A DNA stretch of 64,000 nt from Natronolimnobius baerhuensis. Its GTDB lineage: Archaea > Halobacteriota > Halobacteria > Halobacteriales > Natrialbaceae. Positions 34,856-42,407 of the stretch are shown here, in pieces. Made by a program: the position numbers and the translations under genes. The DNA lies in contig NZ_MWPH01000001.1 of NCBI RefSeq assembly GCF_002177135.1, positions 558,001 through 622,000 of the forward strand. Direction: 5' to 3'. Under the pieces are notes generated by a model, which was not told where the DNA came from, did not search any database, and saw only the letters and a program-made list of their open reading frames with translations. Positions within the stretch are counted from its first letter, which is position 1. Every line of letters begins with the position of its first letter.

Positions 34856-37800
34856 CTACGTGAGCGCAGCCGTTGGCTCGTTCGTCTCAGCCGGTTCTGT
34901 CGACTCGTCTCCTGTCGGTTCGTCAGCGTCCGGTGAGTTGTCGGTGTCACCCGGTTCTCCGTCAGTATTGTCCGTCTCACTGGACTCATCGGGGTCACCC
35001 GTCTCGTCGGTTTCATCCAATTCTGTCGTCTCGTCGGACTCGTCCGTGTCGGTTTCTCCAGTTTCGTCTTCGTCACCAGTTACCGGCTCGGTCTCGTCAG
35101 TCTCCGTCGTCTCGTCAGCGTCGGCCTCTGTCGTCTCATCAGTTTCGTCAGCGTCGTCGACTCCAGGCACGTCCGGATCGGCAAGCCCTTGGACCGTCGC
35201 CGTCCCGGCATCGTCCTCGGTCGCAATTTCGTGGACCGACTCCCCTTCTTCCGCTTCGGACGTGAACTCGAGCGTTTCGGTCTCGCCGCCCTCGAGGTCG
35301 AGTTCCATCTCGTCGACGAGGTCGTCGTCGACGCTGTAAGTGACGGTCTGGGTTCCCTCGAGGTCGCCGACGTTCGTGATGTCTGCTTCGACGGTGACCT
35401 CCTCACCGACGGAGGCGACTGGATCAGCGAAGACGAAACTAACTGCGAACTCGGCGACCTCACCGGCTTCCTCGACTGTCACCGGCACCTCGTCGCTGTC
35501 GTCTTCGCTCGCGACGACTGCGGTGTACTCATCCGGTTCGATCTCGTCCGTGTCAGCGGTCAACGTCACCGACTCAGTCTCGTCGCCCTCGAGTTCGACC
35601 GTCTGTGAATCCACTTCGAGATCGAGTTCGGCCAGCGAGAGCGTGACGTTCTGCTCGCCGGCTTCGTCGCCGATGTTCTCGATGTCGGCGTCGACCTCGA
35701 GTGCGTCACCCTGCTCGACGGGCGAGTTCGTCTCGGTGATCGAGACGCTGTAGTTTGCGGGGTCGTCCGTGTCGATCTCGCCCGCTGGCTCGGTTTCGGC
35801 GGTGAGTGGCTCGTCGTAGCCGTGGTTGGTCATATCGACCTCCCAGACGAGTCGTTCGTCGTCGGTTTCGGGCGTCCACAGGGCCGTGAACTCGTGCTCG
35901 CCGGGCTCGAGTCCGCCGACTGGCTCGTCTTCGGTCGTTCCCTCGACGTACTCGCTGATGACCGCGAGCGGCTGGTCGTTCGGGTTATCGTAGCCGAAGG
36001 TCACGTCGATCCCGTCGTCATCCTCGAGCGGTTCAGTTTCTTCGACGCCGATGTCGGGCTGTTCGGGCCGGATCTCCTCGAGACAGGTCTCAGAATCCGG
36101 GTGTGGGTGGTCGATGCCAGCGACCGGAATCGCTTCGTCCGAACTGATGCCCGTGATCGCGGTGCCGAAGTCGCCGTAGTCGTTGACGCCGACGGTCACT
36201 TCGTCCTCGCCGGTTTCCGTGACGCCATCGTCGGCGTCGATGTCGAACACAATCGTTCCGATAAACGGTGCCTCGATGTCGTCGCCAACGGTGATGAAGT
36301 CCTCAATGATCGTGTTGCCGTAGCCGGCAGTGTCGTAGAACCCGGTGCTGGCAGCGACTTGCTCGCCGTCCTCGAAGTTGCCGGTCACCTCCGCTCGCGT
36401 GCAGTCGGTGAACTCGACCATGAACGTCGGATCGACCGTGTACTCGAGCGAGTCCGCAGCCAGCGTCTCGCCCTCGTCGGTCGACTCGAGGGCGACGTCG
36501 ACCGTCGCATTATCCGTCAGCGGCTGCTCGAGGTCGACCGTTTCGTTGTTCAATCCGGTATCGGGCGCGAACGGCTCGGTTTCGACCAGTTCCGTCTCGT
36601 TGGCCGTCGCCGTCAGCATGTACTCGACCGAGGCGTTGGTCTCTTGCACCGTCAGCGTCTGTCCGTCGCCGGTCTGGTCGGTCACGTCGAGGACGGCGTC
36701 GGTTTCACCGGGATCGTCGGGGTCGTCAGCGTCCTCGAGCGTGTACGTAATCGTCTCACTCGCCAGCGTCTCGTCGTCGTCGCTGGCGCGCACGGACACG
36801 TCGACCGTCGTCTCGTCCTCGAGTGCTGGCTCGAGGTCGATCTCGAGGCCGGTCACGGGTTCGTCCGCATCGAACGTCTCACTGTCGACGCGCTCGCCGT
36901 CGTACTCGGCCGCGACGGTGTAGTCCTCGCTCGCGTTCGCCTCGTCGACGAGAAGCGTCTCGCCGTCACCGGTCTGGTCGCTCACCGAGAGCGTTGCCTC
37001 GGGATCCGGTTCTGGGTCGGGGTCTGGCTCCTCGTCACCGACCGTCACGAACGCGCCGTCGAGAACCGGGCCACCGCTTGCGGTGACGTACGGCTCGTCG
37101 TCCGCGCCGTCGCTCTCGACGTACTGGAACGTCTGGTCGTCGGTCGTATCGTGATGGACGACTGCGACGAGCGGCTGGCTCTCCTCGAGCGACTCATCGA
37201 GGCCGATCTCGAGATTCTCGTGTTCGCCGCTCTCGAGGTAGTCGGAGACGCCGATGACCGCTTCAGGGTCCACATCGGTTGCGACACCGTCGTAGATCGC
37301 GACGAAGCCGCCCTCCGAGAGGTCGACGCTGTCGACGACGACGCTCTCGCCGTCGGACTCCTGATCCGCGAACGTGATCGAGGCTGTTCCCTCGAGTTCG
37401 TCGATCTCCTCGATTGTCTGGGTGATCTCGATTTGGACGTGCTGGACGATCTGCGTGACGTCGTCAGTGTCCTCGCTGACGGCGTACGCCGTTGCATCGG
37501 CCGCAGTGTCCTGCGTGAGAATCTGCAGTTGCGTGATGCTGATCTGCTGGTACTGGATCGCTCGAGCGGTCTCCTCGCAGGCGGTCTGGGCCGCCGTCTG
37601 AATCTGCGTGACCGTCGCCTCCTGATGCTGGACGAGCGCGCCGCTCGAGGCACCGTGGGCGAGCGTCTGGACCTGCGTGACGTCGACGACCTGCGTCTGG
37701 GTGACCGCACCCTGACCAGCGCCGTATGCAGCGGCCTGGATTTGTTCGATTTCGATGACCTGGTGCTGGATTGCCGATTCAACTGCCCCCTTCGAGGAGC

Positions 37801-39112
37801 CAAGCGCAGCGTGTTGGATCTGCGTTACCGAAACCTCCTGATACTGGGTGAGGCTACCCTGTGCAGCCCCGTCAGCCGCCGCCTGAATCTGCTCGACGCT
37901 CGCCGCTTGGCTCTGGGAGATCGACCCCTTCGAGGCACCGAAGGCCGCTTCCTGAATCTGGGTGATCGAAATGCGCTGGACCTGCTCGACCGTCACCGAC
38001 TGGACCTGTGTCAGCGAGCCTTTGCTCGCCCCGCGGGCCGCGGACTGGGTCTGCTCGACATTCACTTCCTGGCGCTGCTCGAGTGCACCTTTCGCCGCGC
38101 CCGTCGCCGCCTTCTGGATCTGCTTGATATCGACGCGCTGGTGCTGTTCAACCTCGACATCCTGGGCCTGCTCGAGTGCCGCCTCAGTGCTCCCCTCGAG
38201 CGCACCAGCCGAGGCTCCCGCTGCTGCGTGCTGGACGTGCTCGAGCGTGACCTGCTGGCGCTGCTCGACAGTGATCTTCTGATACTGCTCGAGGACGCCG
38301 TAGGCTGCACCTTGTGCGGCTTCCTGAATCTTCGGCGTTCGCTCGATGTCACGCTCGCCGGCTTCGCTCGCCGCACCGGCGGCCGCGCCGTAGGTTGCAA
38401 CCTGAATCTGCTCGACAGTCACGCGCTGTTCCTGCGCGAGCGCACCGTGGGTCGCGCCCCAGGTGGCACTCTGCATCTGGGTCGCGGTGACCGTCTGGTG
38501 CTGGGCCAGCGCGCCATCAGTTGCGCCACCGACTGCGTACTGGACCTGCGTCGCGTTCACCTCTTGCTCTTGCATCATCGAGCCGTGGACCGCCCCTTTC
38601 GTCGCCTCCTGGACCTGCTCGGCATCGGCTTCTTGATGCTGGCTCGCCGCGGCACTCGCCGCCTCGAGCGCCGCTGCGTGCTGTTCCTGCGTCACCTCGA
38701 CACCTTGGGACTGAGCAAGTTCGACACCCTCCTCGACACCGGCTTCGACGGCGTCAGGAACGTCGGGGTCATCCTGCGTGGCTGCCGCGTCGGTCTCAGC
38801 TGTGTCGGCATCCGCCTCTGCGTCTGTGTCGTCCAATCCGATTGGCGACTCGAGTGCCAGTACCTCGACATTACCCTGACTGGTCGTCTCAGGGGTCGAC
38901 TGGTCGTCGGCTCCGTCGCTACCGTCATCGTCGCCGTCCTGTTGTGCGTCAACGTCCGTCAGCACAGTCTCGTCGTCTGGCGTCTCCTCACCGTCGGCAG
39001 TGCCGTCCGCGAACGGGGTGACCCCGCCGCCGAGCAACGGCAACGCGACGACGCTTGTGATCATCAACGCGGCGATCAGCACGACACCGAGTGCTCCCTG
39101 TTGCCACCTCAT
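34856..39112 (-). CDS. giant secreted surface protein with Gln-ladder repeats and CARDB-like domains
   Basis: The protein has 1418 residues from the ATG at 39112. A hydrophobic signal (about 5-35, ALGVVLIAALMITSVVALP) is followed by an acidic linker to 135. A repeat region covers 138-570, a DUF7282-like domain about 575-690 (SITFADQESDGESVVVD), and two related beta repeats 700-900 (SVSDQTGDGETLLVDE, DVTDQTGDGQTLTVQE). A Cys-bearing domain follows (FMVEFTDCTRAEVTGNF), then two CARDB-like Ig folds 1140-1320 and a Thr/Glu/Asp tail. No PGF-CTERM or C-terminal anchor is seen. It is probably an adhesin or S-layer-associated fibre protein. Confidence 0.88.
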   Translation of the reverse strand: MRWQQGALGVVLIAALMITSVVALPLLGGGVTPFADGTADGEETPDDETVLTDVDAQQDGDDDGSDGADDQSTPETTSQGNVEVLALESPIGLDDTDAEADADTAETDAAATQDDPDVPDAVEAGVEEGVELAQSQGVEVTQEQHAAALEAASAAASQHQEADAEQVQEATKGAVHGSMMQEQEVNATQVQYAVGGATDGALAQHQTVTATQMQSATWGATHGALAQEQRVTVEQIQVATYGAAAGAASEAGERDIERTPKIQEAAQGAAYGVLEQYQKITVEQRQQVTLEHVQHAAAGASAGALEGSTEAALEQAQDVEVEQHQRVDIKQIQKAATGAAKGALEQRQEVNVEQTQSAARGASKGSLTQVQSVTVEQVQRISITQIQEAAFGASKGSISQSQAASVEQIQAAADGAAQGSLTQYQEVSVTQIQHAALGSSKGAVESAIQHQVIEIEQIQAAAYGAGQGAVTQTQVVDVTQVQTLAHGASSGALVQHQEATVTQIQTAAQTACEETARAIQYQQISITQLQILTQDTAADATAYAVSEDTDDVTQIVQHVQIEITQTIEEIDELEGTASITFADQESDGESVVVDSVDLSEGGFVAIYDGVATDVDPEAVIGVSDYLESGEHENLEIGLDESLEESQPLVAVVHHDTTDDQTFQYVESDGADDEPYVTASGGPVLDGAFVTVGDEEPDPDPEPDPEATLSVSDQTGDGETLLVDEANASEDYTVAAEYDGERVDSETFDADEPVTGLEIDLEPALEDETTVDVSVRASDDDETLASETITYTLEDADDPDDPGETDAVLDVTDQTGDGQTLTVQETNASVEYMLTATANETELVETEPFAPDTGLNNETVDLEQPLTDNATVDVALESTDEGETLAADSLEYTVDPTFMVEFTDCTRAEVTGNFEDGEQVAASTGFYDTAGYGNTIIEDFITVGDDIEAPFIGTIVFDIDADDGVTETGEDEVTVGVNDYGDFGTAITGISSDEAIPVAGIDHPHPDSETCLEEIRPEQPDIGVEETEPLEDDDGIDVTFGYDNPNDQPLAVISEYVEGTTEDEPVGGLEPGEHEFTALWTPETDDERLVWEVDMTNHGYDEPLTAETEPAGEIDTDDPANYSVSITETNSPVEQGDALEVDADIENIGDEAGEQNVTLSLAELDLEVDSQTVELEGDETESVTLTADTDEIEPDEYTAVVASEDDSDEVPVTVEEAGEVAEFAVSFVFADPVASVGEEVTVEADITNVGDLEGTQTVTYSVDDDLVDEMELDLEGGETETLEFTSEAEEGESVHEIATEDDAGTATVQGLADPDVPGVDDADETDETTEADADETTETDETEPVTGDEDETGETDTDESDETTELDETDETGDPDESSETDNTDGEPGDTDNSPDADEPTGDESTEPAETNEPTAALT
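37403..38701 (-). repeat. coding repeat region, about 23-residue units with Gln ladders
   Basis: Within the surface protein, residues 138-570 carry about 15 units of the pattern VxVxQIQxAAxGAxxGALxQ followed by xQ. Examples are VTATQMQSATWGATHGALAQ and ISITQIQEAAFGASKGSISQ. Gln at fixed points alternates with small residues (Ala, Gly, Ser). Some units are spaced by partial copies (VTVEQVQR, VEVEQHQR). The DNA repeats are diverged, so the array is old rather than a recent expansion. Confidence 0.85.
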
Positions 39113-39565
39113 AGGCCACGCCCACCGGCACTCGCCACAGTTGATCCAGCCAGTTGCTGGTCGCGTTCTGGTCGCATCCACGCGGGTCGCGCGCAGTGTG
39201 ATTCCTCCTCAATCGAACCGTCCCATCCCACGCCATAGCACCGCTGTTTCGCCCCCGCGTCGCAATACCATCGGTCGTCAGCAGTTGCACTACCGGATTG
39301 CATTGGTTTCCGACCACGGGACCGAATCGACGCATAAACACGCCGGTCGTTTCGGTTAGCCAGCGGATACAATCCCGTATTACTCACCGTTTCGCCAGAC
39401 TGAACCGGCCTCAATCGACCGCACAGTGACACCTCGAGCGCTGTCGCTGCCCGCGGCCGGCCAGCCTCGAGTAGCCACGTACGTGAGAGGAAGCCCGGTG
39501 TTTCGGCGTGTATATCCACCGCAGGCAGCCGTCTCCTCGAGCCACGGATTACGATATCACTAGGT
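39113..39565. other. intergenic region between the surface protein and bioY
   Basis: No gene could be supported in these 450 bp. Short open frames here lack acidic, coherent protein sequence. The region must contain the surface-protein promoter. Only scattered CTCGAG and GC-rich sequence is seen before the BirA-like operator that follows. Confidence 0.5.
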
Positions 39566-39597
39566 TCGTAAACCGATGTTTTGATTACTGTTTACGA
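39566..39597. promoter_or_regulatory. BirA-type biotin operator upstream of bioY
   Basis: TCGTAAAC (39566-39573) and GTTTACGA (39590-39597) are perfect inverted repeats 16 bp apart. Their core GTAAAC and GTTTAC and the spacing match the BirA operator known from bacteria and archaea (TTGTAAACC and GGTTTACAA half sites). The site ends 13 bp before the bioY ATG, where it could block transcription in the presence of biotin. No birA gene is in the window. Confidence 0.65.
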
Positions 39598-39610: not shown

Positions 39611-40189
39611 ATGGCAACTGACCAGCAGTCGGTCGACCTCGTCGAGGGCGATGTCGTCCGCTCGTTCGCACGCGCAGCGCTGCTCGCTGTGCTTATTGGC
39701 GCATCTGCGCCCGTCGCAATACCAATTGGGCCGGCACCGATCACGCTGCAAGTACTGTTCGTCTTCCTCGCTGGCCTCGTACTCGGCCCGCTGTGGGGAA
39801 GTTTTTCGATGGTACTCTATCTCGCCGCGGGCGCGGTCGGCGTTCCGGTCTTCGCGGGGATGGAAACCGGCTTTGGCGTGCTCGTTGGTGAGACGGGCGG
39901 CTACCTCTGGTCCTACCCCATCGCCGCGGGTCTCATCGGTCTGTTCGTCCACCGCGGCACGGACCTGCGCGACCCCGCTGAACAGCCACTTATCCTCGTC
40001 GTCATCGCGCTTCTTGCCGGGCTGGTCGTCATCTACGGCATAGGCGTCAGCTACATGGCCCAGGTGCTCCGGCTGGACCTGTGGGAGGCGCTCCTCGTTG
40101 GGATGATCCCGTTTATCCCCGGCGACCTGCTCAAACTGGCCGCCGCAATCGCTATCGTCAAAAGCGGCCGGCTCAACGTGGCCAACTAG
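39611..40189 (+). CDS. bioY: biotin transporter substrate-binding membrane protein BioY
   Basis: The protein has 192 residues and six membrane segments. It is the S component of an energy-coupling factor transporter. The first helices with SAPVAIPIGPAPITLQVLFVFLAGL match the BioY signature P-IT-Q. The segment AGAVGVPVFAG and the C-terminal IPFIPGDLLKLAAA are also typical. The bioM gene starts 3 bp after its stop. The short upstream operator suggests biotin-responsive control. Confidence 0.95.
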   Translation: MATDQQSVDLVEGDVVRSFARAALLAVLIGASAPVAIPIGPAPITLQVLFVFLAGLVLGPLWGSFSMVLYLAAGAVGVPVFAGMETGFGVLVGETGGYLWSYPIAAGLIGLFVHRGTDLRDPAEQPLILVVIALLAGLVVIYGIGVSYMAQVLRLDLWEALLVGMIPFIPGDLLKLAAAIAIVKSGRLNVAN

Positions 40190-40192
40190 TCG

Positions 40193-40912
40193 ATGATCGA
40201 ATTCCGATCCGTCTCGTACGCCTTCGGCGACGTGCCCGTCCTCGAGGATCTCTCACTCGAGATCGGCGACGGCGAGTTCGTCCTCCTCGCGGGCGCAAAC
40301 GGCAGCGGGAAGACGACCCTGTTGCGCCACTGTAACGGCCTGCTCGAGCCCGATTCGGGAACCGTCGTCGTCGATGGCACGCCAGTCGCCGACAACGTGG
40401 TCGCCGCCCGCTCGAGTGTCGGCATGGTCTTTCAGCACCCACGTGATCAGTTCGTCGCCGCGACCGTGGGTGCCGACGTCGCCTTCGGCCCCGAAAATCT
40501 CGGCCTCGAGTGCGACGAGATCGACCGACGCGTCGAAAATGCGCTCGAGGCGGTGAACCTTGCGGGGCGCAAAGCCGAGCGCATCGACGCACTTTCGGGC
40601 GGTGAGCAGTCTCGCGTCGCCATCGCTGGCGCGCTCGCGATGGAGCCGAGTCACCTCGTCCTCGACGAACCCTTCACCGGACTCGACGACCCCGCCCGCC
40701 GATCCGTCCTCGAGCGCCTCGAGTCGCTCTCGGCCGCGGGAACCGGCGTCGTGCTTGCGACACACGACCTGCGTGACGTGTTCTCCCTTGCGGACCGCGT
40801 CGTCGCCATGCAGGCGGGACAGGTCGTTGTCGATGACGCGCCGACGCGGGCACTCGCCGACCTCGAGTCACTCGCGATCCGGATTCCGGAAACTACCCGC
40901 GAACGATGTTGA
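40193..40912 (+). CDS. bioM: ECF transporter ATPase BioM
   Basis: The protein has 239 residues with Walker A GANGSGKTTLLRH, the Q-loop region FQHPRDQFVA, signature LSGGEQSRVAIAG, Walker B LVLDEPFTG and switch region ATHDLRDVF. This is the cytosolic energy subunit for BioY/BioN. It begins 3 bp after bioY and overlaps the start of bioN by 7 bp. Confidence 0.95.
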   Translation: MIEFRSVSYAFGDVPVLEDLSLEIGDGEFVLLAGANGSGKTTLLRHCNGLLEPDSGTVVVDGTPVADNVVAARSSVGMVFQHPRDQFVAATVGADVAFGPENLGLECDEIDRRVENALEAVNLAGRKAERIDALSGGEQSRVAIAGALAMEPSHLVLDEPFTGLDDPARRSVLERLESLSAAGTGVVLATHDLRDVFSLADRVVAMQAGQVVVDDAPTRALADLESLAIRIPETTRERC

Positions 40913-41610
40913 CCTACGAACCCGACGACACCCTGGCTCACCGGCTCGATCCGCGCGCAAAACTCGCGGTCCAGATCGGGTTCGCCACAACAGCGCTGGC
41001 ACACACTACGATCCCAGCACTGGCCGTCCTTTCACTGCTGACGGCCGGTATCCTGTACAGCACGCGCGTCCACCTCATTCGGACGCTCGTCGCCTTCCGA
41101 TTCGCGCTCGCCATCCTCGTAATTGCCCCGCTGATCGCCGCGCTCACACTCGGGCCAACCTGGATCGACTGGGCCGACGGACAAGCCTCCCTGCAGGCCA
41201 GTTACCGCGTGGTGCTCATCCTCCTCGTCAGCGCCGCCTACGTCCGCTCGACGCCGATCCGGCACTCGAGAGCCGCGATCCAGCGGACGATTCCGGGCAA
41301 ACCGGGCCAATTACTTGGCATCGGCATCGCGCTCGTCTTCCGATTCCTGCCGGTGATTCAGCGCGACATCACAACCATTCGGGACGCGATGGCTGCCCGA
41401 CTTGGAACCGAACGGAGCGCACTCGAGCGCGCTAGCACGCTCGGCATTCGCAGCCTTGCGCGAGCGTTCGAGCGAGCTGATCGGCTCTCGCTCGCCCTGC
41501 AAGCGCGGTGTTTCGCCTGGAATCCGACGCTTCCGCCGCTTGCGTTCTCGAGGCGTGATTGGGGCGTGCTCGTCTTCGCGTTGGCGCTCGGGCTGACAGC
41601 AGTGCTGTGA
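40906..41610 (+). CDS. bioN: ECF transporter transmembrane subunit BioN
   Basis: The protein has 234 residues with membrane segments in the first half and the coupling-helix region ALERASTLGIRSLARAFERADRLSLALQAR in the second. That second part carries the A-R-G-like motif (LQARCFAW) of the CbiQ/BioN T component. It completes the BioYMN biotin importer. Its gene overlaps the end of bioM. Confidence 0.93.
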   Translation: MLTYEPDDTLAHRLDPRAKLAVQIGFATTALAHTTIPALAVLSLLTAGILYSTRVHLIRTLVAFRFALAILVIAPLIAALTLGPTWIDWADGQASLQASYRVVLILLVSAAYVRSTPIRHSRAAIQRTIPGKPGQLLGIGIALVFRFLPVIQRDITTIRDAMAARLGTERSALERASTLGIRSLARAFERADRLSLALQARCFAWNPTLPPLAFSRRDWGVLVFALALGLTAVL

Positions 41611-41627: not shown

Positions 41628-42380
41628 CTACACCGACGAAAACGGCACCTGATCGCTGCTCGAGTCGCCCTCTGCCGTCGCCTCGAGACCGGCAGGAGGC
41701 GGAACGTCTTCGGGAACATCGAGTTCACGGTCGAAAAACGGCTGGTTCGCTCGAATCCGGTCTTCGTCCCACTCCCACCACTCGAGATCGAGCAGTCGCT
41801 CCCTGATATCGTCGGGAAATCGCCATTTGATACGTTCGGCCGGGACGCCGGCAACAACGGCGTACGGCTCGACATCATCAGTGACGATTGAACCGGCACC
41901 GATCACTGCCCCGTCGCCAATCGTGACGCCCGAGAGGACAACCGCACGCGCCCCGATCCAGACGTCATTGCCGACCGTAATCGCCCCATTCGAGGTGACC
42001 TCGAGCCCGCTGTCGAGAACTTCGTCATACAGTCGAATCTGTAACGATGGCTGGTCGAGCTTGTGGTTTGTCTCCTGAAAAATGCAATCTCGAGCAATCG
42101 CACAGTAGTTGCCGAGCGAGACGTCCCCGATTAGATCGCAGTTCGGCTCGAGGTTCGTGCCTCGTCCGACAGTCACATCCCCGCTGAGTACACAGCCCCG
42201 ACTCAACCGCGTCCGAGGGCCGAGATCAATCGTTCCACGAAGGAGACACCCCCTCGAGAGTCGTGCAGACGGGGCCACAGCCAACTCGAGTGCGTCAGTG
42301 TGTCGGTTGAGTACGCCGTGGATTGCGCTCGGGTAGCCAAGCACTGACAGCGCCCGGTTCATGACGGTCTCGAGGCTCAC
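41628..42380 (-). CDS. hexapeptide-repeat acyltransferase, left-handed beta-helix
   Basis: The protein has 250 residues. Residues about 35-175 hold hexapeptide repeats ([LIV]-G-x4; LSRGCLLRGTIDLG, VSLGNYCAIARD, ITVGNDVWIGARAVVLSGV), as in CatB/LacA-type O-acetyltransferases. A histidine in FQETNHKLDQ may be the catalytic base. I chose the GTG at 42380 because the TATA box at 42408-42415 is 31 bp upstream. The ATG at 42362 and TTG at 42398 are alternatives. It may act in surface glycan acetylation. It is convergent with the bio operon. Confidence 0.85.
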   Translation of the reverse strand: MSLETVMNRALSVLGYPSAIHGVLNRHTDALELAVAPSARLSRGCLLRGTIDLGPRTRLSRGCVLSGDVTVGRGTNLEPNCDLIGDVSLGNYCAIARDCIFQETNHKLDQPSLQIRLYDEVLDSGLEVTSNGAITVGNDVWIGARAVVLSGVTIGDGAVIGAGSIVTDDVEPYAVVAGVPAERIKWRFPDDIRERLLDLEWWEWDEDRIRANQPFFDRELDVPEDVPPPAGLEATAEGDSSSDQVPFSSV

Positions 42381-42407
42381 AGTTAGGAAACGGCCCAACA
42401 GCCTGCG

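Follow-up and report, generated by a model that had tools for sequence, protein, structure and literature searches.

A probable BirA operator before the biotin importer genes of Natronolimnobius baerhuensis, and its counterparts across haloarchaea

The BirA protein of Escherichia coli is a bifunctional biotin ligase with an N-terminal helix-turn-helix (HTH) domain, and the haloarchaeal BirA is built likewise. The E. coli bioA-bioB operator has the form TTGTAAACC-N16-GGTTTACAA, with the half-site core GTAAACC/GGTTTAC that is also found in the haloarchaeal site described here. Rodionov et al. are said to have predicted, in 2002, BirA sites in archaea too, and reportedly found conserved sites ahead of bio genes in genomes with an HTH-bearing BirA; to our knowledge, the archaeal side of BirA regulation rests on prediction. 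Their study of the BirA regulon of Eubacteria and Archaea is cited in passages of PMC3199775, PMC4877710 and PMC3403918, and no description of a haloarchaeal BirA regulon was found in a search of the open-licence literature. In Streptococcus suis, a BirA site lies at the bioY promoter with an N14 spacing by our count, as here, and binding to it has been shown in that organism (PMC4877710). The S. suis case differs from the haloarchaeal one in its bacterial promoter, in its half-site, TTGTTAACC, and, according to the passages of that paper that treat it, in lacking a biotin synthesis pathway (PMC4877710).

We analysed a 64,000-nucleotide stretch of the genome of Natronolimnobius baerhuensis, hereafter the window. 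Its positions 39566-39597 read TCGTAAACCGATGTTTTGATTACTGTTTACGA, a 32-bp repeat in which the left half-site TCGTAAAC (39566-39573, plus strand) and the right half-site GTTTACGA (39590-39597, plus strand) form the perfect inverted repeat TCGTAAAC-N16-GTTTACGA, 13 bp before the bioY ATG at 39611. The dyad is perfect over 8 bp per arm, the next pair outward and the ninth pair inward being mismatched. The site can be written with 8-bp arms and an N16 spacer, or with 9-bp arms (left arm TCGTAAACC) and an N14 spacer, in which case the innermost base of the right arm is T, not G. The first-pass annotation had described a perfect inverted repeat directly ahead of a BioYMN importer and had matched its core and spacing to known BirA operators. 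The repeat, its coordinates and its distance from the start codon proved exact, and the core GTAAACC/GGTTTAC is that of E. coli. With 14 bp between the 9-bp arms, the spacing lies within the 14-16 bp of BirA operators; it agrees with S. suis but is 2 bp shorter than in E. coli, from which the outer bases also differ (TCG here, TTG in E. coli).

The importer itself was borne out by domain matches directly downstream, where BioY is accompanied by its own ATPase and T component. The gene bioY (39611-40189, plus strand; Pfam BioY, E 5.7e-43) encodes the biotin-specific S component of an ECF importer, bioM (40193-40912, plus strand; Pfam ABC_tran, E 2.7e-30; ECF_ATPase_1, 3.2e-67, below the cut-off of that model) the ECF ATPase, and bioN (40906-41610, plus strand; Pfam CbiQ, E 7e-15) the transmembrane T component. 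Only 3 bases separate bioY from bioM, and bioM overlaps bioN by 7 bases; the three genes are therefore read as one operon. Two minus-strand ORFs lie nearby. One, of 1441 residues (34856-39181), carries many degenerate (V/I)-Q-x-A-A-x-G-A repeats followed by acidic domains, and by eye resembles a large secreted or surface protein. The other, of 256 residues (41628-42398), lies downstream of bioN, is convergent with it, and by eye is like a hexapeptide-repeat acyltransferase.

Judged alone, the bare inverted repeat is only mildly improbable. The exact repeat was matched once in the 64 kb and never in 100 dinucleotide shuffles, and in simulations a perfect 8-bp repeat arises within 250 bp at a frequency of 0.4% with a spacer of 16 and of 3.8% with spacers of 10-20. 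A chance palindrome, or a promoter sequence conserved by descent only, would accord with the fact that 8-bp repeats are not rare, the window holding 39 perfect ones with spacers of 10-20. What places this repeat beyond chance is its conservation in relatives and its gene specificity.

Two checks proposed by the first-pass annotation, for a birA with an HTH domain and for further sites, both gave a positive answer in the genome, an assembly of 3.9 Mb in 8 contigs with 99.5% completeness. The single biotin protein ligase gene (G000:C1:329303-330238, minus strand) encodes a protein with an N-terminal winged HTH (PF08279 HTH_11, residues 4-53 of the scanned protein, E 1.4e-12) and with the catalytic and C-terminal ligase domains PF03099 (BPL_LplA_LipB, E 6.4e-18) and PF02237 (BPL_C, E 2.7e-14), the composition of a group II biotin protein ligase. 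It matches TIGR00121 over the cut-off, and birA_repr_reg at 53.7 bits, below the 70-bit cut-off of that model. Global alignment with BirA from the E. coli K-12 genome gave 92 identical residues, and the stretch SRAA--KH---LRD-G in the HTH is common to both proteins.

A scan of the same genome for 9-bp arms with N14, allowing up to 3 mismatches, returned three sites against none for the reversed pattern, the bioY site being the best. The second-best, TCGTAAACCATAGTTTCTAGGCATGTTGACGA, lies on another contig and overlaps the start codon of a minus-strand bioB (TIGR00433, E 2.7e-102). This gene heads a bioB-bioU-bioF-bioD operon outside the window (G000:C2:263699-267886; L212:5700-9887), in which it is followed by BioU (NF047886, E 3.8e-100, below the cut-off of that model), BioF and BioD. 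Because sites stand at both bioY and bioB, which are unlinked, one motif marks both biotin uptake and biotin synthesis. The third site, with 3 mismatches (C1:1043366; L213), was taken as chance. No BioA model matched any of the four operon proteins, and BioU occupies the place where bacteria commonly have BioA. Identified here by its model name, BioU presumably acts in biotin synthesis, and may fill the step of the absent bioA. For Halobacteria, the gene list in the relevant passage of PMC6138646 has bioF, bioD and bioB, and no bioA.

The first-pass annotation had staked its reading on the repeat recurring in related bioY promoters. Of 80 bioY-like loci fetched, 66 were haloarchaeal, and these were compared together with the window. 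A site scoring at least 12/16 and ending 12-14 bp before a start codon was present at 57 of the 67 loci; eight of the remaining ten have a site of at least 12/16 elsewhere in the stretch, their start codons not being settled, and two (L043 and L074) reach 11/16 only. A Methanosarcinaceae locus (L076) carries TTGTTAACC-N13-GGTTAACAA at bioY. In the 57 aligned sites, columns 1-9 and 25-32, corresponding to the two half-sites, are conserved. So are spacer columns 16, 17 and 19 (T in 56/57, T in 54/57 and A in 56/57), which belong to a TATA-like element of the family TTSAW that is displaced from the dyad centre and conserved off its axis. In the window, this element is TTGAT (39581-39585, plus strand), at -30 to -26 of the bioY ATG. 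This is where the TATA box of a leaderless archaeal transcript would be, and the position is consistent with a leaderless bioY message. The same alignment bears on whether the repeat could act as an RNA hairpin or riboswitch-like leader, as an inverted repeat directly ahead of a start codon might. Column 4 of the left arm is G in 23 of the 57 sites and its right-arm partner is A in all 57, so pairing is not kept; moreover, the internal TATA-like box would put the repeat upstream of the bioY transcript. We consider an RNA element extremely improbable.

Gene specificity was assessed across 292 genomes of the class, of which 279 have a BirA, 277 a BioY and 128 a bioB that passes the cut-off. Allowing no more than 2 mismatches, a site was found in 224 of the 292 genomes, and the reversed control in 4 of 292. 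Assigned to genes by coordinates and fetched DNA, the 75 distinct sites listed at this threshold comprise 39 at bioB, 35 at bioY and one at neither, so that 74 of the 75 stand at genes for making or importing biotin, and the listed sites are almost confined to them. The exception (G264:C1:2645968), with no bioY or bioB nearby, was taken as chance. In two genomes (G095:C34 and G122:C10) bioB matched in two pieces, possibly reflecting broken genes. Together with the two unlinked biotin genes and the different promoter positions of their sites, this genome-wide specificity contradicts a chance palindrome or mere descent, for which we see next to no likelihood.

Sixty-eight of the 292 genomes lack a site at 2 mismatches. 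In 13 of these, neither BirA nor BioY nor BioB was found over the cut-off; since the whole biotin set is absent, they are no test of bioY without BirA, and were dropped as a confounded control; a Fisher value for this comparison accordingly does not count as independent evidence. The DNA upstream of bioY was scanned in 32 BirA-bearing siteless genomes. Weaker sites of at least 12/16 were found in 29, two of them (L188 and L204) doubtful by position, and the other three score 10-11; shuffles of these loci reached maxima of 10-13 per locus. In 19 of the 32, the best site has an in-frame start 12-14 bp downstream, L198 among them scoring 11. The bioY operators of genus g47 (L186, L195, L200, L202 and L206) tend to have 15 rather than 16 bp between the 8-bp arms, and several operators of this genus lie about 23 bp from a start codon.

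Inspection of 34 genomes in which the BirA match was weaker or split brought out one genus, g61, in which the HTH is missing from the BirA match in 4/4 genomes (L242-L245). The match begins at residue 59-61 in two of them, and the HTH segment alone, used as a query, found no match in the four birA loci. The gene bioY is kept, and the operator is absent from both of the bioY promoters examined in this genus (0/2). The best stretches in the two genomes concerned score 10/16 and, at 354 bp upstream, 11/16; no site with up to 3 mismatches lies near bioY in either, and 3-mismatch sites are far off. The joint loss concerns one lineage, perhaps one event, and genus g61 fits the BirA reading as a natural negative. 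Elsewhere, one genome has a second ligase match without an HTH (G080:C1:1126213-1126986; 44% identity over residues 74-310) alongside its HTH-bearing BirA.

Genus g61 is also informative about a different haloarchaeal transcription factor that would recognise a GTAAAC-type half-site and respond to biotin status. BirA binding is predicted here from sequence, and haloarchaea have many HTH regulators from which such a factor could come. However, the half-site core recurs in the bio operator of E. coli, g61 has lost the bioY site along with the BirA HTH, and no further regulator gene was seen beside the bioYMN operon when the ORFs of the window were examined by eye. We regard another factor as quite unlikely. 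Chance, an RNA hairpin and another regulator were each considered and rejected.

From the site, its conservation and gene specificity, the HTH-bearing BirA and the joint loss, we infer with high confidence that the repeat is the operator through which a group II BirA represses bioYMN and bioBUFD by way of biotinyl-5'-AMP; the mirrored site before the importer genes is thus very probably a BirA shut-off site. At bioB, the arrangement differs. We found 43 distinct bioB loci, of which two scoring 8-9/16 were omitted from the base counts. In the 41 used, a TATA-like TTTAT lies at about -30 to -26, just upstream of an operator that spans -21 to +11 and includes the start codon, and the right half-site GTTTACGA encodes Val-Tyr-Glu as codons 2-4. 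All 43 of the 43 loci have GTT as the second codon, a triplet that accounts for 7.4% of the Val codons in those genes, the count being partly selected by our choice of each bioB start as the best fit to the site. A single operator in two registers suggests that TBP/TFB might be blocked at one promoter and initiation at the other. The coincidence of the site with the core promoter at bioY would also suit an activator site or general basal element, but a position of -21 to +11 at bioB seems unsuited to activation, and we hold this alternative to be very improbable.

Under the preferred reading, BirA would keep biotinyl-5'-AMP when biotin is plentiful and no acceptor protein is left to biotinylate, and would then dimerise and bind both half-sites. 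At bioYMN, where the half-sites flank the TATA-like box, bound BirA would exclude TBP/TFB. At bioBUFD, where the operator takes in the start codon and the point at which transcription is expected to begin, it would block polymerase at initiation, the operator being written into the codons for Val-Tyr-Glu. When biotin is low, both promoters would be free. That the binding form is BirA loaded with biotinyl-AMP is a supposition taken from the bacterial paradigm; Bacillus subtilis BirA is reported to bind its operators only with biotin and ATP (in a passage of PMC4016012). We consider it on balance probable that the two registers, one on either side of the TATA box at bioY and the other over the start site and initial codons of a leaderless bioB, provide graded control of uptake and synthesis that collapses jointly when the HTH is lost.

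Overall, the repeat appears to be a clean, if ordinary, archaeal representative of the BirA operator family, an interpretation that is well supported. BirA is one of few regulators with a DNA signal common to bacteria and archaea, and the prediction is now sharp and testable in haloarchaea, where genetics exist. Unlike the E. coli operator, the haloarchaeal site is set in an archaeal TATA-box promoter, and importer and synthesis operon are marked at separate loci, in contrast to bioA-bioB. Relative to the predictions of Rodionov et al., the haloarchaea-wide footprint, the bioB start-codon site and the HTH-loss genus come from the present analysis, and the placement over the bioB start codon and the joint loss of HTH and site raise the case slightly above routine. 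The predicted haloarchaeal system brings together two promoters, two operator registers and one regulator, and genus g61 provides a natural HTH knock-out.
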